From positions 1 to 25,166 of IMG/VR virus record IMGVR_UViG_3300043469_000230: a DNA stretch of 25,166 bases; one strand, given 5' to 3'. The notes beneath the pieces were generated by a model. The model was given only the letters and a program-made list of their open reading frames with translations, made no database searches and was not told the origin of the DNA. A program made the translations under genes and the position numbers. Below are positions 68-25,166 of this stretch, piece after piece (the stretch's first letter is position 1; the number at the start of each line of letters is the position of its first letter). Source of the DNA: a virus.

Positions 68-1216
68 CTATGAGTCTGCTCCTGCGTCAGCGAATGCAAT
101 TGCATCCTCTTCCTCCCACTGAAGACCGAAGCGGACGAATACGGTGTATTCAATTGTGTCCTTCTTTGGCTTGTATTCACGGTTTACAGTGATGTCTCTC
201 TGGAAACCCCAAATACGGTTCTGAGGGAATGTAAGGTCAACGTAACCTGCTGGGTAGTAAGGAACTTCCTGAACGTCAATTCCTAGAACACGAGTGGTGC
301 GAGCACCACCGAATGTCTGACCAGCACCGTCTAGGTATGCCTGACGGTTTGCAGGGGTACCTGCTGGAGTACCAGCAAATGCCTCGGCAATAGCGTCTGC
401 TAGGGTACCGTTGTGCTTGATAATACCCTGGAATGCGTCAGTACCAGCGTAGAACTTAAGGTTGTTCTTAAGTGCACGATACTTACGTGGCATAGCCAAG
501 ATAATGTTCTGCATTACATCTGGAGTCCAAGCGTTGTCTGAGACAGTCACTACTGACTCGTGGGCATCGCCATTCTCCTTAGCCTTGTTGATAAAGCCTT
601 CCATGATACCGAGGAATGCACCATCGCCACTGTCGCCAGTACCGTTGATTGCTAGGTCCTCAATGTCATTTGCGAACGCATTTGTCATAAGACGTACTAG
701 GTGATCCTCTAGAGCACCACCTTCAATACCGTCTTCAAGTGCTTCTGATGAAACTTCCCAATCAAGACGAATCTTCTTGGTGGTAAGTTCTACCTTTGTA
801 AACGATGCACCTGCGTTGGTGTAGTTACCTACAGCCTGTGCAGCAGCACGGATTACACGCTCTCCCACGTTAACCTTTTCAAGTTCCATGGTGTTTGCTC
901 TCATGGTCACACGGCGACCATCCTTGGCGAGAACTGTGGCATCCCACACGTAGTCAATAAAACGACGTGCTTGCTCTGGGCGAAGGATACCGCTACCTGC
1001 CTCACCAGAAGGGTTTACTGCGTTTGGACCAGTTGTTAGTCCTGCAAGTGCTACTGGAATGTTTCCAACAGCACCCTGTGTTGCGTAGTTACCTGGTACG
1101 TTTGAACCATCTTCCGAACCTGATGCAAATGCACCCTGTCCTTGGTAAAGACCTGGAGTTGTTCCTCCTAGTTCACCAGACGCACCTGGTTGATTTTTAA
1201 TAATTTCTTCCGACAT
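68..1216 (-). CDS. Major capsid protein, HK97 fold
   Basis: The protein has 382 residues and would form the icosahedral shell. Residues 1-70 are Gly/Ala/Asn-rich and of low complexity. From about residue 75 the sequence reads like an HK97-type capsid protein: 'ILRPEQARRFIDYVWDATVLAKDGRRVTM', a central helix region 'LVRLMTNAFANDIEDLAINGTGD', and a C-terminal 'FPQNRIWGFQRDITVNREYKPKKDTIEYTVFVRFGLQWEEEDAIAF'. The length is normal for a capsid protein without an N-terminal delta scaffold domain, which fits a separate scaffold encoded upstream. The frame is open 30 codons further upstream, but the ATG at 1216 has a perfect AGGAGGTGA ribosome site 5-6 nt before it and lies outside the upstream gene. 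It follows portal and protease, the standard order. Confidence 0.9.
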   Translation of the reverse strand: MSEEIIKNQPGASGELGGTTPGLYQGQGAFASGSEDGSNVPGNYATQGAVGNIPVALAGLTTGPNAVNPSGEAGSGILRPEQARRFIDYVWDATVLAKDGRRVTMRANTMELEKVNVGERVIRAAAQAVGNYTNAGASFTKVELTTKKIRLDWEVSSEALEDGIEGGALEDHLVRLMTNAFANDIEDLAINGTGDSGDGAFLGIMEGFINKAKENGDAHESVVTVSDNAWTPDVMQNIILAMPRKYRALKNNLKFYAGTDAFQGIIKHNGTLADAIAEAFAGTPAGTPANRQAYLDGAGQTFGGARTTRVLGIDVQEVPYYPAGYVDLTFPQNRIWGFQRDITVNREYKPKKDTIEYTVFVRFGLQWEEEDAIAFADAGADS

Positions 1217-1250
1217 ATTGTTCACCTCCTGAGTGATTTTGTATTTGTTT

Positions 1251-1823
1251 TTATCTAAATAGATCGGCAGTTTTGAGGAAACGTCCGCCCCATAGGGATT
1301 TCTCAACCTGTTCTGGTTGATTTTCCTGTACGATCTCGCCTAGATCGCCAGACTTGCGGAAAGCAGTGTCAGCCTCAACAGCATCCACTCTCTTTCCAAA
1401 CTCGTCAAACACGCCCTTTGTTGCAGTTACCTCATTTTTTACTGCAGCAATTGACTTGTGTAGTTCTGCGATTTGCTCGGCTTGTGCCTGAACAACCGCA
1501 GTTAGATCGCTAAAGGCTTTTGTGACGGTGTCCTTGATGTCTGCAACTGCAGTCTCAAGAGCCTCGTCTGACTTAGCAACAGGCTCTACAACTTCGTCTG
1601 TTGATTCCTGCTCTTCACTGGCATCGGCTAGATTTAGAGCCTCTTCCATTGGAACAACGGTAGTAGTGGTTTCAGCCTTTTCTACCTCTTCAACAGCATC
1701 TTCAGTTACTTCTTCGCCTGCGTCTGCCTCTGGAGCGACCTGTGATTCTTCAACTGTAGTCTCTTCAGCAACAACCTCTTCGGCTGGTGCATCAAGAACT
1801 ACTTCATTTGTTGTGTCAGTCAT
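1251..1823 (-). CDS. Putative scaffold protein nested in the protease gene
   Basis: This is an in-frame internal start, at codon 254 of the 443-codon protease gene. The ATG at 1823 is preceded by AAGGAGGT (1831-1838) with a 7-nt spacer, a far better ribosome site than the one before the full-length gene. The 190-residue product starts MTDTTNEVV. It has an acidic Glu/Ala/Val/Thr-rich half (to about residue 95), then a predicted coiled coil ('KDTVTKAFSDLTAVVQAQAEQIAELHKSIAAVKNEV'), then a basic tail ending 'GGRFLKTADLFR'. Acidic-helical plus coiled coil is typical of capsid scaffolds. Lambda C/Nu3 has the same arrangement: protease with nested scaffold sharing the C terminus. The ribosome site and frame are seen directly; the scaffold role is inferred. 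Confidence 0.7.
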   Translation of the reverse strand: MTDTTNEVVLDAPAEEVVAEETTVEESQVAPEADAGEEVTEDAVEEVEKAETTTTVVPMEEALNLADASEEQESTDEVVEPVAKSDEALETAVADIKDTVTKAFSDLTAVVQAQAEQIAELHKSIAAVKNEVTATKGVFDEFGKRVDAVEADTAFRKSGDLGEIVQENQPEQVEKSLWGGRFLKTADLFR

Positions 1824-21353: not shown

Positions 21354-21827
21354 GTGTCTAAAATATCATTGACGTTGGGTAAAAAGAATCGTCGTTCGTG
21401 TGACGGATGTACAAAATGTTGTGAAGGTTGGCTAACTGCAACTATTCATGGCGAAGATATGTATCCTGGCAAGCCGTGCCAGAACTGTGATCCTGGAAAA
21501 GGTTGCACAGACTACAAGAACAGACCAGAAGAGCCGTGCAAAAATTATATGTGCATGTGGAGAGCAGAAGATGTTGTTCCAATTGAGTTCAAGCCATCCG
21601 AGGTTAATTCACTAATCACCAGAGGCAACATCAACGGCATGCCATATCTCGTCTTGGTTGAGGCAGGCGAGAAAATGAGAGCCGAGGTCGTCGCTTGGTT
21701 CATCGTATTCGTTTCTAGCAAGGGCATCAATGCAGAATGGCAAATTAATGGGCAGTCTTACTTCTCTGGTCACCCACAATTCCTAGAGGCAGTCGAAGCC
21801 CGAAGCAAACAGCAAAGCAAAAAATAA
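21354..21827 (+). CDS. Cysteine-cluster protein, YkgJ-like
   Basis: A 157-residue protein with nine cysteines in the first 70 residues: C16-x2-C19-x2-C22-C23, C42-x2-C45, C51, C62 and C67. 'CDGCTKCCEGW' followed by 'PCKNYMCMW' fits the YkgJ / UPF0153 family, thought to bind zinc or an iron-sulfur cluster. The rest is a charged alpha/beta part without cysteines. Start: GTG with a weak GA-rich site; the ATG codons downstream would remove the cysteine cluster, so GTG is preferred. The TAA is shared with the next gene (TAATG). Reported family functions are vague; it may be a metal-handling or redox protein acting with the next two genes. Confidence 0.75.
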   Translation: MSKISLTLGKKNRRSCDGCTKCCEGWLTATIHGEDMYPGKPCQNCDPGKGCTDYKNRPEEPCKNYMCMWRAEDVVPIEFKPSEVNSLITRGNINGMPYLVLVEAGEKMRAEVVAWFIVFVSSKGINAEWQINGQSYFSGHPQFLEAVEARSKQQSKK

Positions 21828-22597
21828 TGAAAAACAAAATTCTAGACACGCTGTCACACTCAAACAAGATCATCATTTCACCAGATATCGATGGAATAAC
21901 CTCTGCACGGCTCCTGGAGGCTTTTAACGGTTCGGTGGTGGTTGGAACCTACGACAAGAACGTTCTCCTCCTCAGCGACGGCGTAGATCCAAAAGAATGC
22001 CTATTCGTTGACTGCGATATGAACTCGGCGGATTTTGTTTCGATCGGAAATCACCAGCGTTTAAGTTCGGGGGATAACATGGCTTTAAAGTCGTTTAATC
22101 CAAATGTTCATTACGGTGTCAGTAAATATACGGATAAGTATCCGTTCGCTACAGCGTTTTTAATTTCGTTCGCAACAAGAGTACCTACATCCGAACATAT
22201 CCAAGCATACATGTCCTATGCTGACTCTACCTATAAGAACTTAATTAATTACAGCGATAACATGCATAATTGGTGGCAACGGATGAAGCATCTTGAACTT
22301 GATCAAGTTTTTAATCCATCTCCACAAGTCTTGCAAATTCTAAAGTCTCTAGAGTCCGCAGAAACGCCACAGGGCTTTGTCTCCAAGCGATTTGGCAAAA
22401 AGCGGTACATTGAGGAAATGAATGCTGCCTTGGCTAGTCACAATATCCCCCATATGACATTAGTATCTGGGAAAAAGTATTTAACTGACAAAGTTGGCAA
22501 AGCAACTGTGGTAAAATATAATCAGGACATAATCTCCTATGCTGAAGTGTACGGAGGGGAATATTCCATTACATACAATGAGGAGATAGACTGGTGA
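21827..22597 (+). CDS. DHH-phosphoesterase-like protein
   Basis: A 256-residue protein. The N-terminal 80 residues resemble the DHH superfamily (RecJ, NrnA, exopolyphosphatase): a beta strand then Asp20 and Asp22 in 'ISPDIDGITSARLL' (motif I, D-x-D-G), Asp62 and Asp64 in 'FVDCDMNSAD' (motif II), and 'IGNHQRL' where motif III, normally DHH, is expected. In place of DHH it reads Asn76-His77-Gln78, so metal binding may be altered or the protein inactive. The DHHA1 domain is not evident, and the total is shorter than NrnA (about 320). No membrane segments. The start overlaps the preceding stop (TAATG) and the end overlaps the next gene by 4 nt, a tight operon. Possible roles: nanoRNA/cyclic nucleotide degradation or single-strand DNA exonuclease; I would not choose. 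Confidence 0.65.
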   Translation: MKNKILDTLSHSNKIIISPDIDGITSARLLEAFNGSVVVGTYDKNVLLLSDGVDPKECLFVDCDMNSADFVSIGNHQRLSSGDNMALKSFNPNVHYGVSKYTDKYPFATAFLISFATRVPTSEHIQAYMSYADSTYKNLINYSDNMHNWWQRMKHLELDQVFNPSPQVLQILKSLESAETPQGFVSKRFGKKRYIEEMNAALASHNIPHMTLVSGKKYLTDKVGKATVVKYNQDIISYAEVYGGEYSITYNEEIDW

Positions 22598-22803
22598 GAG
22601 AACCTGCTAAGGACGTTACCTTCTTTGACCTATTCGATCCGTCAGAGGAAAGATCCGACAAAGAACTTATTGAGAAGCGTCTTGCCATATGTAATGAATG
22701 TCCCTGGTTTAATAAGCGATCAGCAAGATGCAGACAATGTGGATGCTATATGAAGTTAAAGACAACCCTTGGAAGGGCTAAATGTCCTATGGGCAAATGG
22801 TGA
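22594..22803 (+). CDS. Small CxxC metal-binding protein
   Basis: A 69-residue protein with six cysteines: 'IC(33)NEC(36)PWFNKRSARC(46)RQC(49)GC(51)YMKLKTTLGRAKC(64)PMGKW'. The 'C..CP.F....C..CGC.M..K......CP.GKW' pattern is a recurrent phage zinc-ribbon-type protein (I recall it in T4-like marine phages; family number not certain). GTG start overlapping the upstream TGA by 4 nt (GTGA). Last gene of the trio with the YkgJ-like and DHH-like proteins. Unknown function; likely a zinc-binding accessory or regulatory protein. Confidence 0.78.
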   Translation: MREPAKDVTFFDLFDPSEERSDKELIEKRLAICNECPWFNKRSARCRQCGCYMKLKTTLGRAKCPMGKW

Positions 22804-22840
22804 TTGCTTCGCAATTGTTATACCGCCGAAAGTTTAATGC

Positions 22841-22954
22841 ATGAAACCATCATTTTTTAACAAATTAGCCTATGTCGTAGGTGGATTTGCTCTCTGCATT
22901 ACATGGATGTATGTCTTTATGTCTGTTATTAAGTTATTTTTGGATCAGAGATAG
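22841..22954 (+). CDS. 37-residue single-span membrane protein
   Basis: MKPSFFNKLAYVVGGFALCI then TWMYVFMSVIKLFLDQR. A basic N terminus, a ~23-residue hydrophobic span (about 10-33) and a charged end fit a membrane-anchored small protein. The ribosome site is weak (GAAAG, spacing about 8). A perfect CAGAGA-TAG-TCTCTG hairpin has the stop codon in its loop. It is 37 nt after the previous gene, possibly co-transcribed. Role unknown; a lysis or superinfection-exclusion role is only a guess. Confidence 0.55.
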   Translation: MKPSFFNKLAYVVGGFALCITWMYVFMSVIKLFLDQR

Positions 22955-23030
22955 TCTCTGTACCCCCGAAATCTGAAAAAATCTATTTTTGTATCACTAC
23001 ACTGCTATAAATGTAGCATTTTATCGCATC

Positions 23031-23046
23031 GTTACCAAAATGTTAC
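23031..23046. repeat. GTTAnCAA-type site, copy 2
   Basis: GTTACCAAAATGTTAC. With two flanking bases, an 18-mer differs by one base from that at 23215-23232. A TTGACA is present 35 nt downstream (23082-23087) but without a clear -10. Confidence 0.5.
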
Positions 23047-23140
23047 ATTTCATATCCGACAAATCTGAAAAAATTTTCAAATTGACAAAAATCTGAATAT
23101 TTTGTAGATGTGAATGATACACGATCTAAAATAAAAATGC

Positions 23141-23169
23141 ATCATATCATAGTGAGCACACATTGTCAA
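23141..23169 (-). promoter_or_regulatory. Leftward near-consensus sigma-70 promoter
   Basis: On the minus strand TTGACA (23164-23169), a 17-nt spacer and TATGAT (23141-23146) with an upstream TGA. It is the best complete promoter in the window. It points left toward genes that lie on the plus strand, so its product would be untranslated or antisense: no minus-strand frame follows in the next 200 nt. Confidence 0.6.
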
Positions 23170-23216
23170 GCCTTACCCCTGGTGCCACCCCTTTGTTTAG
23201 TACTGGTGCGCCCTTC

Positions 23217-23232
23217 GTTATCAAAATGTTAC
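23217..23232. repeat. GTTAnCAA-type site, copy 3
   Basis: GTTATCAAAATGTTAC, 31 nt before the rightward TTGACT promoter at 23264. See copies at 20838 and 23031 and the degenerate GTTATCAATTCGTTAT at 23995-24010. Confidence 0.5.
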
Positions 23233-23252
23233 CAAAAAAGATCGAAATCTAC

Positions 23253-23261
23253 GGCGTGTCG
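23253..23261 (+). repeat. GGCGTGTCG element, copy 1
   Basis: GGCGTGTCG preceded by GATCGAAATCTAC and followed by ATTTG. The same neighbourhood (TCGTTATC..., TTTCGATCTATC, GGCGTGTCGATTAG) recurs at 23980-24042, so the repeat is about 60 nt long with the 9-mer at its end. A further lone copy is at 23455-23463, just behind the gene ending at 23448. Confidence 0.6.
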
Positions 23262-23263
23262 AT

Positions 23264-23292
23264 TTGACTTTGTCATACATCTATGGTTAGAT
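23264..23292 (+). promoter_or_regulatory. Rightward promoter of the small-gene array
   Basis: TTGACT (23264-23269), 17-nt spacer, TTAGAT (23287-23292) with an upstream TGG. The promoter at 24546-24574 has the same design, and both transcripts share a 22-base leader segment (23307-23328 and 24589-24610) ending in the ribosome site. Confidence 0.62.
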
Positions 23293-23337
23293 ATATATAT
23301 AAAGATAAATAGAAATAAAAAGAAAGGAAGGTAACAA

Positions 23338-23448
23338 ATGTTTTCAGTTTGTGAACTTTGCGATGTAGTAGTAGAAAAGATTTTCGTAGAGGAGGCTGGC
23401 GAGTATGGTTGCGAAATCTGCTGGTCAGAGTATGGAGAAATCCACTAA
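23338..23448 (+). CDS. 36-residue double-CxxC protein
   Basis: MFSVCELCDVVVEKIFVEEA then GEYGCEICWSEYGEIH. Cysteines 5/8 and 25/28 form two CxxC pairs 17 residues apart, the spacing of a four-cysteine zinc ribbon or rubredoxin-like knuckle. The peptide is otherwise acidic. The start has AAAGGAAGG, 7 nt from the ATG, and a promoter 45 nt upstream. No family recognised. It may be an inhibitor or cofactor that binds a host protein, as very small early phage proteins often are. Confidence 0.75.
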   Translation: MFSVCELCDVVVEKIFVEEAGEYGCEICWSEYGEIH

Positions 23449-23454
23449 ACCTCT

Positions 23455-23463
23455 GGCGTGTCG
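23455..23463 (+). repeat. GGCGTGTCG element, copy 2
   Basis: Lone copy 6 nt behind the stop codon at 23448 and 9 nt before the TGTCnG promoter at 23473. It can form a short hairpin (GGCG-TGT-CGCC). Confidence 0.55.
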
Positions 23464-23472
23464 CCAACTCAA

Positions 23473-23494
23473 TGTCTGACCCCTACTGTATACT
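23473..23494 (+). promoter_or_regulatory. TGTCnG-N10-TATACT promoter, copy 1
   Basis: TGTCTG (23473-23478), 10 nt, TATACT (23489-23494); 26 nt before the ATG at 23521, with AAGAAAGG between. First of five modules with the same spacing. Confidence 0.55.
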
Positions 23495-23520
23495 AATAGC
23501 AACAAGAAAGGTAATAACTA

Positions 23521-23655
23521 ATGAATCTAGAAATCATCCTCAAGGACGGTACTTCAATCTACCCATCATATGACCCAGAGCACAAGGCAAGCGTGATTGC
23601 GTTCTACAAGGACATGTTTGACAAGGGGCTAATCACTGGCTGGGGCATCATCTAA
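23521..23655 (+). CDS. 44-residue small protein
   Basis: MNLEIILKDGTSIYPSYDPE then HKASVIAFYKDMFDKGLITGWGII. No cysteines. A short beta hairpin ('LEIILKDGTSIY') and a helix ('HKASVIAFYKDMFDKGL') are suggested. AGAAAGG lies 12 nt before the ATG. It does not resemble a family I know. The stop codon overlaps the start of the second promoter module. Confidence 0.75.
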   Translation: MNLEIILKDGTSIYPSYDPEHKASVIAFYKDMFDKGLITGWGII

Positions 23656-23712
23656 ATGTCAGTTGGTATTGTTATACTTGCAATTGTAATTGTTGTTCTA
23701 ATCAATCAGTAA
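23656..23712 (+). CDS. Possible 18-residue hydrophobic peptide
   Basis: MSVGIVILAIVIVVLINQ: a complete, uninterrupted membrane-spanning sequence directly after the previous stop codon (TAAATG). There is no separate ribosome site, so coupling would be needed. The ATG is also part of a promoter module (AAATGTCAG), so the frame could be accidental. The run of Ile/Val with a polar end is unlikely by chance, but not decisive. Confidence 0.35.
   Translation: MSVGIVILAIVIVVLINQ
23657..23678 (+). promoter_or_regulatory. TGTCnG-N10-TATACT promoter, copy 2
   Basis: TGTCAG (23657-23662), 10 nt, TATACT (23673-23678) with an upstream TGT. It lies 43 nt before the ATG at 23722. Confidence 0.55.
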
Positions 23713-23721
23713 AGGATAATC

Positions 23722-23889
23722 ATGGGACTAGGTTTGGCTCTAATCACTCGTTCAGTAATGGCTAAGATTGCATTGCGTAATTTTCCTAAGATAAGCATGT
23801 TTGCTTGTCAGTCATGCAATACCCTCGCTGCTGTCAAGGTATTCAAGGACCACGTTGAAATTGTTAGGTGCAAGTGCAGTGGACACTAA
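23722..23889 (+). CDS. 55-residue CxxC/CxC protein
   Basis: MGLGLALITRSVMAKIALRN at the N terminus (mildly hydrophobic and basic), then 'FPKISMFACQSCNTLAAVKVFKDHVEIVRCKCSGH'. Cysteines 29/32 and 50/52 plus the final histidine suggest a small zinc-ribbon fold. AAAGGATAATC precedes the ATG. The 3' end overlaps a GTG-started frame at 23879. No family recognised. Confidence 0.72.
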   Translation: MGLGLALITRSVMAKIALRNFPKISMFACQSCNTLAAVKVFKDHVEIVRCKCSGH

Positions 23890-23968
23890 GGAACTTGAGT
23901 ATCTCATAGGTCTTTGTGATATCATGCTAATGGATGATGAAGATCTTCTAACTACCCCCAAGCAATAG
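23879..23968 (+). CDS. Possible 29-residue acidic peptide
   Basis: GTG start inside the end of the preceding gene, with AGGTG 8 nt upstream. The peptide is MDTKELEYLIGLCDIMLMDD then EDLLTTPKQ: acidic and probably helical. Overlapping starts are usual in this genome, but GTG and the small size keep this uncertain. Its stop is directly followed by the CGACACGCC element. Confidence 0.5.
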   Translation: MDTKELEYLIGLCDIMLMDDEDLLTTPKQ

Positions 23969-24038
23969 CGACACGCCCGAAAGGGGCGCACCTCGTTATC
24001 AATTCGTTATAAAAGAATTTCGATCTATCGGCGTGTCG
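23969..24038. repeat. Inverted pair of CGACACGCC/GGCGTGTCG elements
   Basis: CGACACGCC (23969-23977) and GGCGTGTCG (24030-24038) are perfect reverse complements enclosing 52 nt. Right of the first arm, CGCCC-GAAAG-GGGCG forms a tight hairpin; a GTTATCAATTCGTTAT site (23995-24010) and TTTCGATCTATC follow. The segment has no gene. As RNA it could fold into a long stem with an inner hairpin. The second half repeats sequence found at 23205-23264. Confidence 0.6.
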
Positions 24039-24048
24039 ATTAGGTAAA

Positions 24049-24070
24049 TGTCGGTAGCCTATGCTAATGT
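24049..24070 (+). promoter_or_regulatory. TGTCGG-N10-TAATGT promoter, copy 3
   Basis: TGTCGG (24049-24054), 10 nt, TAATGT (24065-24070) with upstream TGC; 27 nt before the ATG at 24098, with AAAGAAAGG between. Confidence 0.55.
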
Positions 24071-24097
24071 AAGTAATAGATAAAAGAAAGGTTCACA

Positions 24098-24265
24098 ATG
24101 AACACTAAGGAAACAAACATTGCTCTAAACAGAGCAGGGGCTACTATCCGCTTGGCTAACGAAAGCATTTGGGCTAAGAAGCAGATGGGTATCTGCCCTG
24201 TTGCTCAATGTGATGGTGATGCCGTCAAAGACAATTGGAATGGGTTCTGTAAAGACCACGCCTAA
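24098..24265 (+). CDS. 55-residue Cys/His protein
   Basis: MNTKETNIALNRAGATIRLA then 'NESIWAKKQMGICPVAQCDGDAVKDNWNGFCKDHA'. The potential ligands C33, C38, C51 and H54 form a C-x4-C-x12-C-x2-H set, a plausible small zinc site ('ICPVAQCDGDAV...GFCKDH' resembles a pattern found in many phage zinc-binding peptides). Start with AGAAAGG at about 8 nt. Stop overlaps the next promoter (TAAATGTCGG). Confidence 0.75.
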   Translation: MNTKETNIALNRAGATIRLANESIWAKKQMGICPVAQCDGDAVKDNWNGFCKDHA

Positions 24266-24266
24266 A

Positions 24267-24288
24267 TGTCGGTAGGGTATGCTAATCT
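24267..24288 (+). promoter_or_regulatory. TGTCGG-N10-TAATCT promoter, copy 4
   Basis: TGTCGG (24267-24272), 10 nt, TAATCT (24283-24288) with upstream TGC; 23 nt before the ATG at 24312, with GAAAGGA between. Confidence 0.55.
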
Positions 24289-24311
24289 AAACTTATTGAA
24301 AGGAAAACTAA

Positions 24312-24461
24312 ATGACTACATTCACCAACGAAACACAAAAAGACCGCCGAGCATACGCTGACTATTGGTCAGTAGAGATTGGTGATGTTTACTTTTGTGA
24401 TGACTGTGGCTATTGGACACACAATGACGAAGATGAACTGCCTATGTGTAAGTGTGCCTAA
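24312..24461 (+). CDS. 49-residue CxxC/CxC protein
   Basis: MTTFTNETQKDRRAYADYWS then 'VEIGDVYFCDDCGYWTHNDEDELPMCKCA'. Cysteines 29/32 and 46/48, with His37 between, resemble the layout at 23722. The N-terminal half is polar and basic, the rest acidic. GAAAGGA is about 9 nt before the ATG. No family recognised; a zinc-binding small protein is likely. Confidence 0.75.
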   Translation: MTTFTNETQKDRRAYADYWSVEIGDVYFCDDCGYWTHNDEDELPMCKCA

Positions 24462-24473
24462 CACTACCCTGGG

Positions 24474-24497
24474 CGACACGCCCGACAGGGGCGCACC
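24474..24497. repeat. CGACACGCC element with hairpin, copy
   Basis: CGACACGCCCGACAGGGGCG: the 9-mer followed by a CGCCC-GACAG-GGGCG hairpin and CACC. Compared with 23969, the stem is kept while one loop base changes, which suggests the hairpin matters. It lies 12 nt after the previous stop codon. Confidence 0.6.
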
Positions 24498-24545
24498 TTG
24501 TATGGATCCTACAAAAAAGACACGAAAACTTTGTATGAAATAGGC

Positions 24546-24574
24546 TTGACAAATGACTATTTATCTGGTTGAAT
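24546..24574 (+). promoter_or_regulatory. Rightward TTGACA promoter of the 89-residue gene
   Basis: TTGACA (24546-24551), 17-nt spacer, TTGAAT (24569-24574) with upstream TGG; same design and leader as the promoter at 23264-23292. Confidence 0.62.
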
Positions 24575-24616
24575 ATATATAGATAAAGAAATAGAAATAA
24601 AAAGAAAGGAGTTCAA

Positions 24617-24886
24617 ATGAACTCACTAGTAGTAACAAAAGAAAACTTCCAGACTATCCGCTCGGAAGGTATCGGTAACGGCTTCACCGTTATCAACCCA
24701 GAAGACGGTTACCGCAAGGATAACCGACTATGGTTCGGAACTTGTTCAGTATGCGGTGAGAGTGTAACCAACTCAAGCCTAAAAGGTCTTTGGGAACACG
24801 AGATTGTTCTAGAAGAAAAAAGAAACCCTAGCGGTTTTGTTTCTTACCGTTCATCAAGAAATGTAGACTACTGCCCTAGCAACTAG
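24617..24886 (+). CDS. 89-residue protein with CxxC motif
   Basis: The sequence reads 'MNSLVVTKENFQTIRSEGIGNGFTVINPEDGYRKDNRLWFGTCSVCGESVTNSSLKGLWEHEIVLEEK...'. C43-x2-C46, H61 and C86 could together bind one zinc. It is the longest member of the array, with normal alpha/beta composition. AGAAAGGAG is 5 nt before the ATG. Not recognised. GC content of the gene is slightly higher than its surroundings. Confidence 0.78.
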   Translation: MNSLVVTKENFQTIRSEGIGNGFTVINPEDGYRKDNRLWFGTCSVCGESVTNSSLKGLWEHEIVLEEKRNPSGFVSYRSSRNVDYCPSN

Positions 24887-24927
24887 GGAGTGTCTCACTT
24901 GACAACCACAGAAATGTGTGCGCCCCC

Positions 24928-24936
24928 CGACACGCC
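24928..24936 (-). repeat. CGACACGCC element, last copy
   Basis: CGACACGCC within a GC-rich patch (24920-24938), followed by GAGATGAAAATTTCGATCAA; the hairpin partner GGGCG is missing here, but GTGCGCC stands in front of it. The 'TTTCGATC' neighbour seen at the other copies is retained. Confidence 0.5.
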
Positions 24937-25017
24937 CGAGATGAAAATTTCGATCAAATTCACAGGAAAAATTAACCTAATTAATTCTTTTGAAAACACC
25001 CTAAAATGTCCCTTAAA

Positions 25018-25039
25018 TGTCGGTGGGTAGTGTTATTGT
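25018..25039 (+). promoter_or_regulatory. TGTCGG-N10-TATTGT promoter, copy 5
   Basis: TGTCGG (25018-25023), 10 nt, TATTGT (25034-25039) with upstream TGT; 29 nt before the ATG at 25069, with AAAGAAAGG between. A second TGTC stands 12 nt upstream (25006). Confidence 0.55.
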
Positions 25040-25068
25040 AATAGTAGAAAGAAAAGAAAGGATACCAA

Positions 25069-25166
25069 ATGTATCACTATGATGACCGCTACTACTGGGC
25101 ACCAGAATGTGCCGAGTGTGATGTTGAGATAACTGCTAGAACAGTTGCCGAGTTAGAGCAACTAAT
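25069..25166 (+). CDS. Small CxxC protein, cut by the window end
   Basis: Only the first 32 codons are present: MYHYDDRYYWAPECAECDVE then 'ITARTVAELEQL'. C14-x2-C17 follows a Tyr/Trp-rich start. AAAGAAAGGA is 8 nt before the ATG and a TGTCGG promoter stands upstream. It belongs to the same array of small cysteine proteins; the C-terminal end and total length cannot be seen. Confidence 0.7.
   Translation, partial: MYHYDDRYYWAPECAECDVEITARTVAELEQL

Follow-up and report, generated by a model that had tools for sequence, protein, structure and literature searches.

A promoter element of fixed spacing shared by most mini-genes at the end of a probable freshwater actinophage contig

Results

An array of conserved mini-genes

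The virus record IMGVR_UViG_3300043469_000230, whose 25,166 nt form the window analysed here at full length, carries at its right end an array of very small genes, most of which are preceded by a common promoter element with the consensus AAATGTCnGWSSnnnnTGnTAtaaT. The element is composite, with a -10 of the sigma-A type, often extended (TGnTAtaaT), an optional -35 and, between the two, a box AAATGTCnGWSS. A preliminary description made from the sequence of the window had pointed to eight small frames from position 22594 on, each with a promoter of its own, and the element common to these promoters went unremarked. The frames are where that description had placed them and are indeed not copies of one another. 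They are listed here with one further gene that had been overlooked (G numbers denote related contigs, of which G001 is the closest).

22594-22803, plus strand: DUF6171 protein of 69 aa, two CxxC and one CxC, six invariant cysteines (PF19668, E 1.4e-9; phrog_13558)
23338-23448, plus strand: 36-aa protein, CxxC...CxxC; G001 orthologue 94% identical, 4/4 cysteines kept
23521-23655, plus strand: 44-aa protein with zero cysteines; orthologues in G001, G012 and G018
23722-23889, plus strand: 55-aa protein, CxxC...CxC; orthologues in G001-G006, 4/4 cysteines kept
23879-23968, plus strand: overlooked 29-codon gene, which begins with GTG and overlaps the 55-aa gene at its end; G001 counterpart 75% identical
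24098-24265, plus strand: 55-aa frame, C-x4-C, of weak status as a gene; no orthologue
24312-24461, plus strand: 49-aa protein, CxxC...CxC; G001 orthologue 83% identical, 4/4 cysteines kept
24617-24886, plus strand: 89-aa protein, CxxC, possible CCHC zinc site; in 17 contigs at 44-72% identity
25069-25166, plus strand: last gene, at least 32 aa, CxxC, cut by the contig end; G001 orthologue 43% identical, 2/2 cysteines kept

Orthologues of seven of the eight frames were found in related contigs, with silent change far above replacement and every aligned cysteine kept. Between the 49-aa gene and its G001 counterpart, for instance, there are 16.5 silent changes per 26 sites vs 11.5 replacement changes per 118, and even the overlooked 29-codon gene shows 13 silent changes vs 8 replacements. 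All six cysteines of the DUF6171 protein are kept in 11 contigs, and all three of the 89-aa protein in seven. The frame at 24098 has no orthologue among the related contigs beyond a weak 16-residue match, and was left out of the conserved count. Conservation of frames and cysteines in relatives had been named beforehand as the point on which the preliminary description turned; because seven of the eight frames are conserved together with their cysteines, all but that at 24098, the observation stands.

A composite promoter with an exact spacer

The shared element lies ahead of six of the eight window genes, at five strong sites and one weak one (scores are those of the weight matrix described below).

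23266-23297, plus strand: promoter of the 36-aa gene, a weak box copy (TTTGTC) with the -35 TTGACT, 12.8 bits
23468-23499, plus strand: box promoter of the 44-aa gene, 26.1 bits
23652-23683, plus strand: box promoter of the 55-aa gene at 23722, 20.3 bits
24044-24075, plus strand: box promoter before the 24098 frame, 23.8 bits
24262-24293, plus strand: box promoter of the 49-aa gene, 23.0 bits
24546-24574, plus strand: promoter of the 89-aa gene read from the sequence, TTGACA, 17 nt, TTGAAT, with an imperfect box AAATGAC (repeat D1)
25013-25044, plus strand: box promoter of the last gene, 24.0 bits

The claim that each gene has its own promoter thus holds for these six and, with TTGACA and an imperfect box, for the gene at 24617. 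It fails for the gene at 22594, whose GTG start overlaps (GTGA) the stop of an upstream 256-aa gene and which is without a promoter of its own.

The spacing of the element is constant, the TGTC of the box standing at an offset of precisely 16 nt ahead of the -10. TGnTA comes precisely 14 nt after ATGTC 38 times, vs at most 8 times at any other distance. In a larger set, 565 cases have the -10 starting 18 nt past the first base of AWTGTC; other offsets mostly account for 1-21 cases each, those of 23-24 nt for 32-35, and that of 13 nt for 101 cases, which overlap with the motif itself. Scanning the collection with the correct spacer returned at least 120 loci, whereas a spacer one base shorter, used as a negative control, returned 2. 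A weight matrix, refined on part of the same sequences, found 674 non-redundant sites at 94 loci, many of them picked for holding a site, and none in the reversed sequence of the same 2 Mb. In 257 Gb of bacterial and archaeal genomes, a pattern one base stricter gave 11 single hits in unrelated taxa, where we estimate that about 15 would be expected by chance. As the genome hits are only at about chance level, this arrangement is not one that hosts employ as a class.

Only 91 of the 674 sites have a TTGACA-like -35 (at least 5/6 matches), whereas 439 carry the TG of an extended -10. That this TG might make up for an absent -35 was considered and rejected (66% vs 62%). With the last base of the -10 set at -7, TGTC spans about -28 to -25, just downstream of the place of the -35. 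The -10 lies a median of 30 nt ahead of the start codon, and the element and the stop codon of the preceding gene often overlap (TAAATGTC). We also observed that box positions 11-13 are coupled over the 674 sites, reading TGG (240) or ACC (208); these triplets are complementary, and both occur within single phages. Two regulators or minor-groove reading could explain the two subtypes. In the literature covered, from which most subscription journals fell outside, no such promoter has been described for phages of this group.

A second repeat is confined to the array.

23253-24936, no strand assigned: GGCGTGTCG at 23253, 23455 and 24030; CGACACGCC at 23969, 24474 and 24928

These six copies fall within the 2.3-kb array vs none in the remaining 22.9 kb, and G001 has nine (28621-36960) inside its array vs none outside. 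CGACACGCC holds a GACAC of the WhiA type. GGGCGCACC often adjoins the repeat, and some copies are able to form small hairpins.

The phage and its cultured relatives

The major capsid protein of the window (68-1306, minus strand) has close relatives in IMG/VR by the hundred and shares 42-44% identity with its counterparts in Streptomyces phages of the Stanwilliamsviridae. A search of phage records at the DNA level returned no relatives. Portal, helicase, primase, DnaE polymerase, RecA and terminase genes are common to the related contigs and Streptomyces phage NootNoot. WhiB is encoded by all 12 of the array-bearing or related contigs searched (each at least 100 kb long), which makes actinobacteria almost certain as hosts. 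The G+C content is low, about 0.42, and lake actinophages bearing whiB have been published (PMC6802176, PMC10202952), from which we infer a freshwater origin. The array at the end of the window is probably the start of an early module, and the phage a large freshwater actinophage with kinship to the Stanwilliamsviridae.

The cultured Streptomyces phages NootNoot, Riptide, Coruscant and LukeCage have arrays of small unknown genes at their left ends; in NootNoot and other BE1 phages, these ends form direct terminal repeats some 11 kb long (PMC5764925). Two marker genes of the freshwater arrays, encoding proteins of 337 and 238 aa, have counterparts there that are 42-57% identical. Moreover, in the left ends of NootNoot, Riptide and Coruscant, TG[TC]C stands exactly 16 nt before a -10 of the TAGACT or TAAGCT type at 19 sites, vs a mean of 1.4 at other offsets, and this offset is that of the freshwater spacing. 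The BE1 terminal early region resembles the freshwater array in its small unknown genes, in the two markers and in the spacing from TGTC to the -10, and the phages have a genome backbone in common. Its promoter sites differ in keeping a TTG at the -35, in their TAGACT or TAAGCT -10 and in lacking the upstream AAA. In BillNye, a more distant member, the element was not seen, and none of the mini-proteins of the window was found in the BE1 terminal early regions. Through the two markers, the freshwater array is homologous to the BE1 terminal repeats and might itself be terminal; contig ends and coverage of the freshwater contigs give no direct sign of it. The assemblies of G011, G013 and the window all stop inside the array, which fits either a terminal repeat or a hypervariable island.

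Cysteine pairs and the encoded proteins

Counting C-x4-C, CxxC and CxC, as the preliminary description did, seven of the eight frames encode a cysteine pair, one more than it had claimed; by CxxC or CxC, the number is six. Across the relatives, CxxC or CxC is present in 31% of 425 promoter-following genes of at most 120 codons vs 11% when residues are permuted within each protein, and in 38% vs 14% for those of at most 60 codons (n=219). Per family of at most 120 aa, the proportion is 42 of 127 (33%), and among the small genes of BillNye it is 21 of 118 (18%). The six of eight in the window give P of about 0.013 against the 31% class, 0.04 against the class of at most 60 aa and 0.0007 against the BillNye small genes; the class is itself already enriched, and the local excess over it is modest. 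In G001, the array runs on with many cysteine-free genes, so the domination by cysteine in the window is partly due to the contig end, and in the longer contigs G002, G007 and G018 the arrays are mostly cysteine-free. Dominance by putative zinc binders, which the preliminary description had found unusual, is accordingly confined to this stretch, with CxxC or CxC in about a third of genes across the promoter class. The window shows the cysteine-rich start of a longer mixed array, in which the pairs are conserved and mark perhaps a third of the mini-proteins.

Family libraries mostly miss these genes, and profile searches gave DUF6171 as the only clear family match. Membership of PF19668 was found for 22594-22803 (38.7 bits vs a curated cut-off of 27), the other frames being non-members, and NCBIfam gave zero matches. 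Relatives carry another DUF6171 copy in their tail region (G001 21914-22090), and the family is common in marine cyanophages (Synechococcus phages). A cysteine-rich 157-aa protein encoded at 21354-21827 (phrog_9155, E 1e-25) precedes the 256-aa gene to which the DUF6171 gene is coupled. In the 89-aa family, C43, C46, H61 and C86 are invariant across 12 sequences and, judged from the alignment, form a possible CCHC zinc site. For the 89-aa protein, tblastn of phage records found no relatives, nor did the family have a relative in bacterial genomes. Its AlphaFold model (pLDDT 84.9) had no Foldseek match at E <= 0.001 in the PDB or BFVD, and the best VIA-align Z was 3.5, too weak for use. The DUF6171 model was poor (pLDDT 58), and PDB sequence searches with both families returned nothing convincing (best E 0.035).

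Discussion

We show here that an array of conserved mini-genes is accompanied by a promoter element of fixed spacing, that the element is restricted to these phages, and that markers of the array are homologous to genes of the terminal early region of cultured phages. We consider it somewhat probable that the array is an early module of the host-takeover type, in which an activator bound to the box co-regulates the mini-genes. Dozens of mini-genes would be lined up head to tail, a separate ribosome site and a separate copy of the composite promoter preceding most of them. An activator, encoded or recruited by the phage, would bind the box and help the host RNA polymerase to start, presumably so that the mini-genes are turned on jointly, as happens at T4 middle promoters. 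The mini-proteins, about a third of them probable zinc-binding mini-domains, would then act on host machinery. We favour an activator because the freshwater phages mostly have a poor -35 but retain the box, and because the spacing is exact.

Several points weigh against this interpretation. Transcription starts at the box promoters are predicted from sequence, and the matrix column frequencies and per-locus counts are partly circular, which the spacing and scan controls are not. The 19 sites in the Streptomyces phages are not independent, since those of NootNoot and Riptide are partly orthologous, and LukeCage has one site only. Because the Streptomyces phages keep the TTG of the -35, the box together with an ordinary -35 could suffice there without an activator. 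Nor could a regulator be singled out among WhiB, a MerR-like 183-aa protein and a 50-aa helix-turn-helix protein; all are equally conserved, and all three candidates have relatives in BillNye, which is without the box. Wbl proteins contact region 4 of sigma-A (PMC6282962), making the phage WhiB a plausible partner. The 183-aa protein (G005 57135-57686), MerR-like by our own reading and without a Pfam match, is strongly conserved, and in NootNoot and every long relative its gene lies beside that of the replicative helicase. A phage sigma factor was rejected as the regulator, since Sigma70 region 2 (PF04542) was found in none of 16 contigs, not all of them complete, vs 10 of 14 control genomes. 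Selection by presence or absence was likewise abandoned: at least two of the contigs picked as motif-free, G011 and G013, turned out to be cut off within the array, and BillNye too has those candidates that NootNoot shares.

The box might instead be an operator, at which a phage repressor or shut-off protein bound between -35 and -10 would silence all mini-genes together, in the way of the stoperator-like sites of other actinophages. The position suits a repressor, one site stands at nearly every early promoter, a second array-specific repeat is present, and the Streptomyces phages keep the TTG of their -35. However, most freshwater promoters have a poor -35 and should be weak unaided, and an operator would not require base-exact spacing; we regard this explanation as unlikely, though a serious rival. 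Slightly less likely still, and likewise a serious rival, is that the box is read by the host polymerase or a host factor (a sigma-A spacer contact, RbpA, CarD or WhiA), so that these would be plain strong promoters of the host type. Two hosts that differ considerably do both have phages with a similar element, the -10 and the optional -35 are of host type, and the reverse complement of the box, GACAT, is close to the WhiA site GACAC (PMC3781837). Against this, the fifth base of the WhiA site is T here, not G, and the scattered single hits in bacterial and archaeal genomes do not exceed chance. That the mini-proteins are a special set of zinc-binding takeover proteins, with cysteine pairs as the defining feature of the array, seems to us very improbable. 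Six of the eight have CxxC or CxC with every aligned cysteine kept, the four putative zinc ligands of the 89-aa family are invariant, and pairs exceed the shuffles in all size classes; yet a pair marks only 33% of the 127 small families, a twofold difference from BillNye, and the window ends within the cysteine-rich start of a mixed array.

Known systems resemble the array in part. The host-takeover module of SPO1 also comprises about two dozen small early genes, served by many promoters, at a genome terminus, and the array likewise has many small genes with promoters of their own. SPO1 is, however, an unrelated phage with which no homology was seen (none was searched for), and the reports consulted describe no such spacer box for it (PMC6873191, PMC10531801). 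A takeover function of the products is suggested by their position, their size and the SPO1 analogy. The earlier view of these as takeover-type early genes gains from that analogy and from the marker homology and promoter geometry that link the array to the terminal early regions of NootNoot-type phages; the genes are small, conserved and, for the most part rather than throughout, separately promoted. T4 middle promoters (PMC2988021) also combine a host -10, often extended, and a poor -35 with a box at a fixed distance upstream of the -10. The MotA box, WWWTGCTTtA, contains TGCTT and lies 12 +/- 1 bp from the -10, whereas the box here, AAATGTCnGWSS, reads TGTCnG and is closer. Because sequence and distance differ, we do not claim a MotA system; neither MotA nor AsiA was identified, although no search was aimed at these families. 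The Start-Associated Sequences of cluster K mycobacteriophages (PMC3203893) are likewise short repeats before many small right-arm genes of actinophages. They lie 3-7 bp before the start codon and include the ribosome site, whereas the promoter here is about 50 nt upstream, with its -10 further from the start than they are, and its sequence differs from GGGATAGGAGCCC. Finally, the promoters of the WhiA/WhiB regulon of Streptomyces (PMC3781837, PMC6282962) have a short asymmetric site related to GACAC, and the phages encode WhiB. The available parts of those reports mention no fixed distance from WhiA sites to the -10, and the box gives GACAT on its other strand, GACAC itself being found in the separate repeat CGACACGCC.

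The new and testable part of these findings is the shared promoter element, which occurs in related form in cultured phages. Cultured phages that carry a related element with identical spacing, NootNoot (Streptomyces griseus) and Coruscant (Streptomyces venezuelae), make its regulation open to testing at once, which the uncultured phages do not permit. The element predicts a regulator. More tentatively, and with less confidence than in the co-regulated module itself, we propose an undescribed promoter switch of large actinophages, in which a phage factor (Wbl with host sigma-A, or another) would read the TGTC box and turn on a fast-exchanging library of individually promoted mini-proteins, with many zinc mini-domains directed against the host among them. 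Such a switch might be the actinobacterial counterpart of sigma appropriation by T4, common to freshwater and Streptomyces phages. The element also serves as an objective finder of early mini-genes, which are usually lost in annotation, in one group of common lake phages, and the 140 gene families found behind it so far provide a candidate list of host-takeover and counter-defence proteins.

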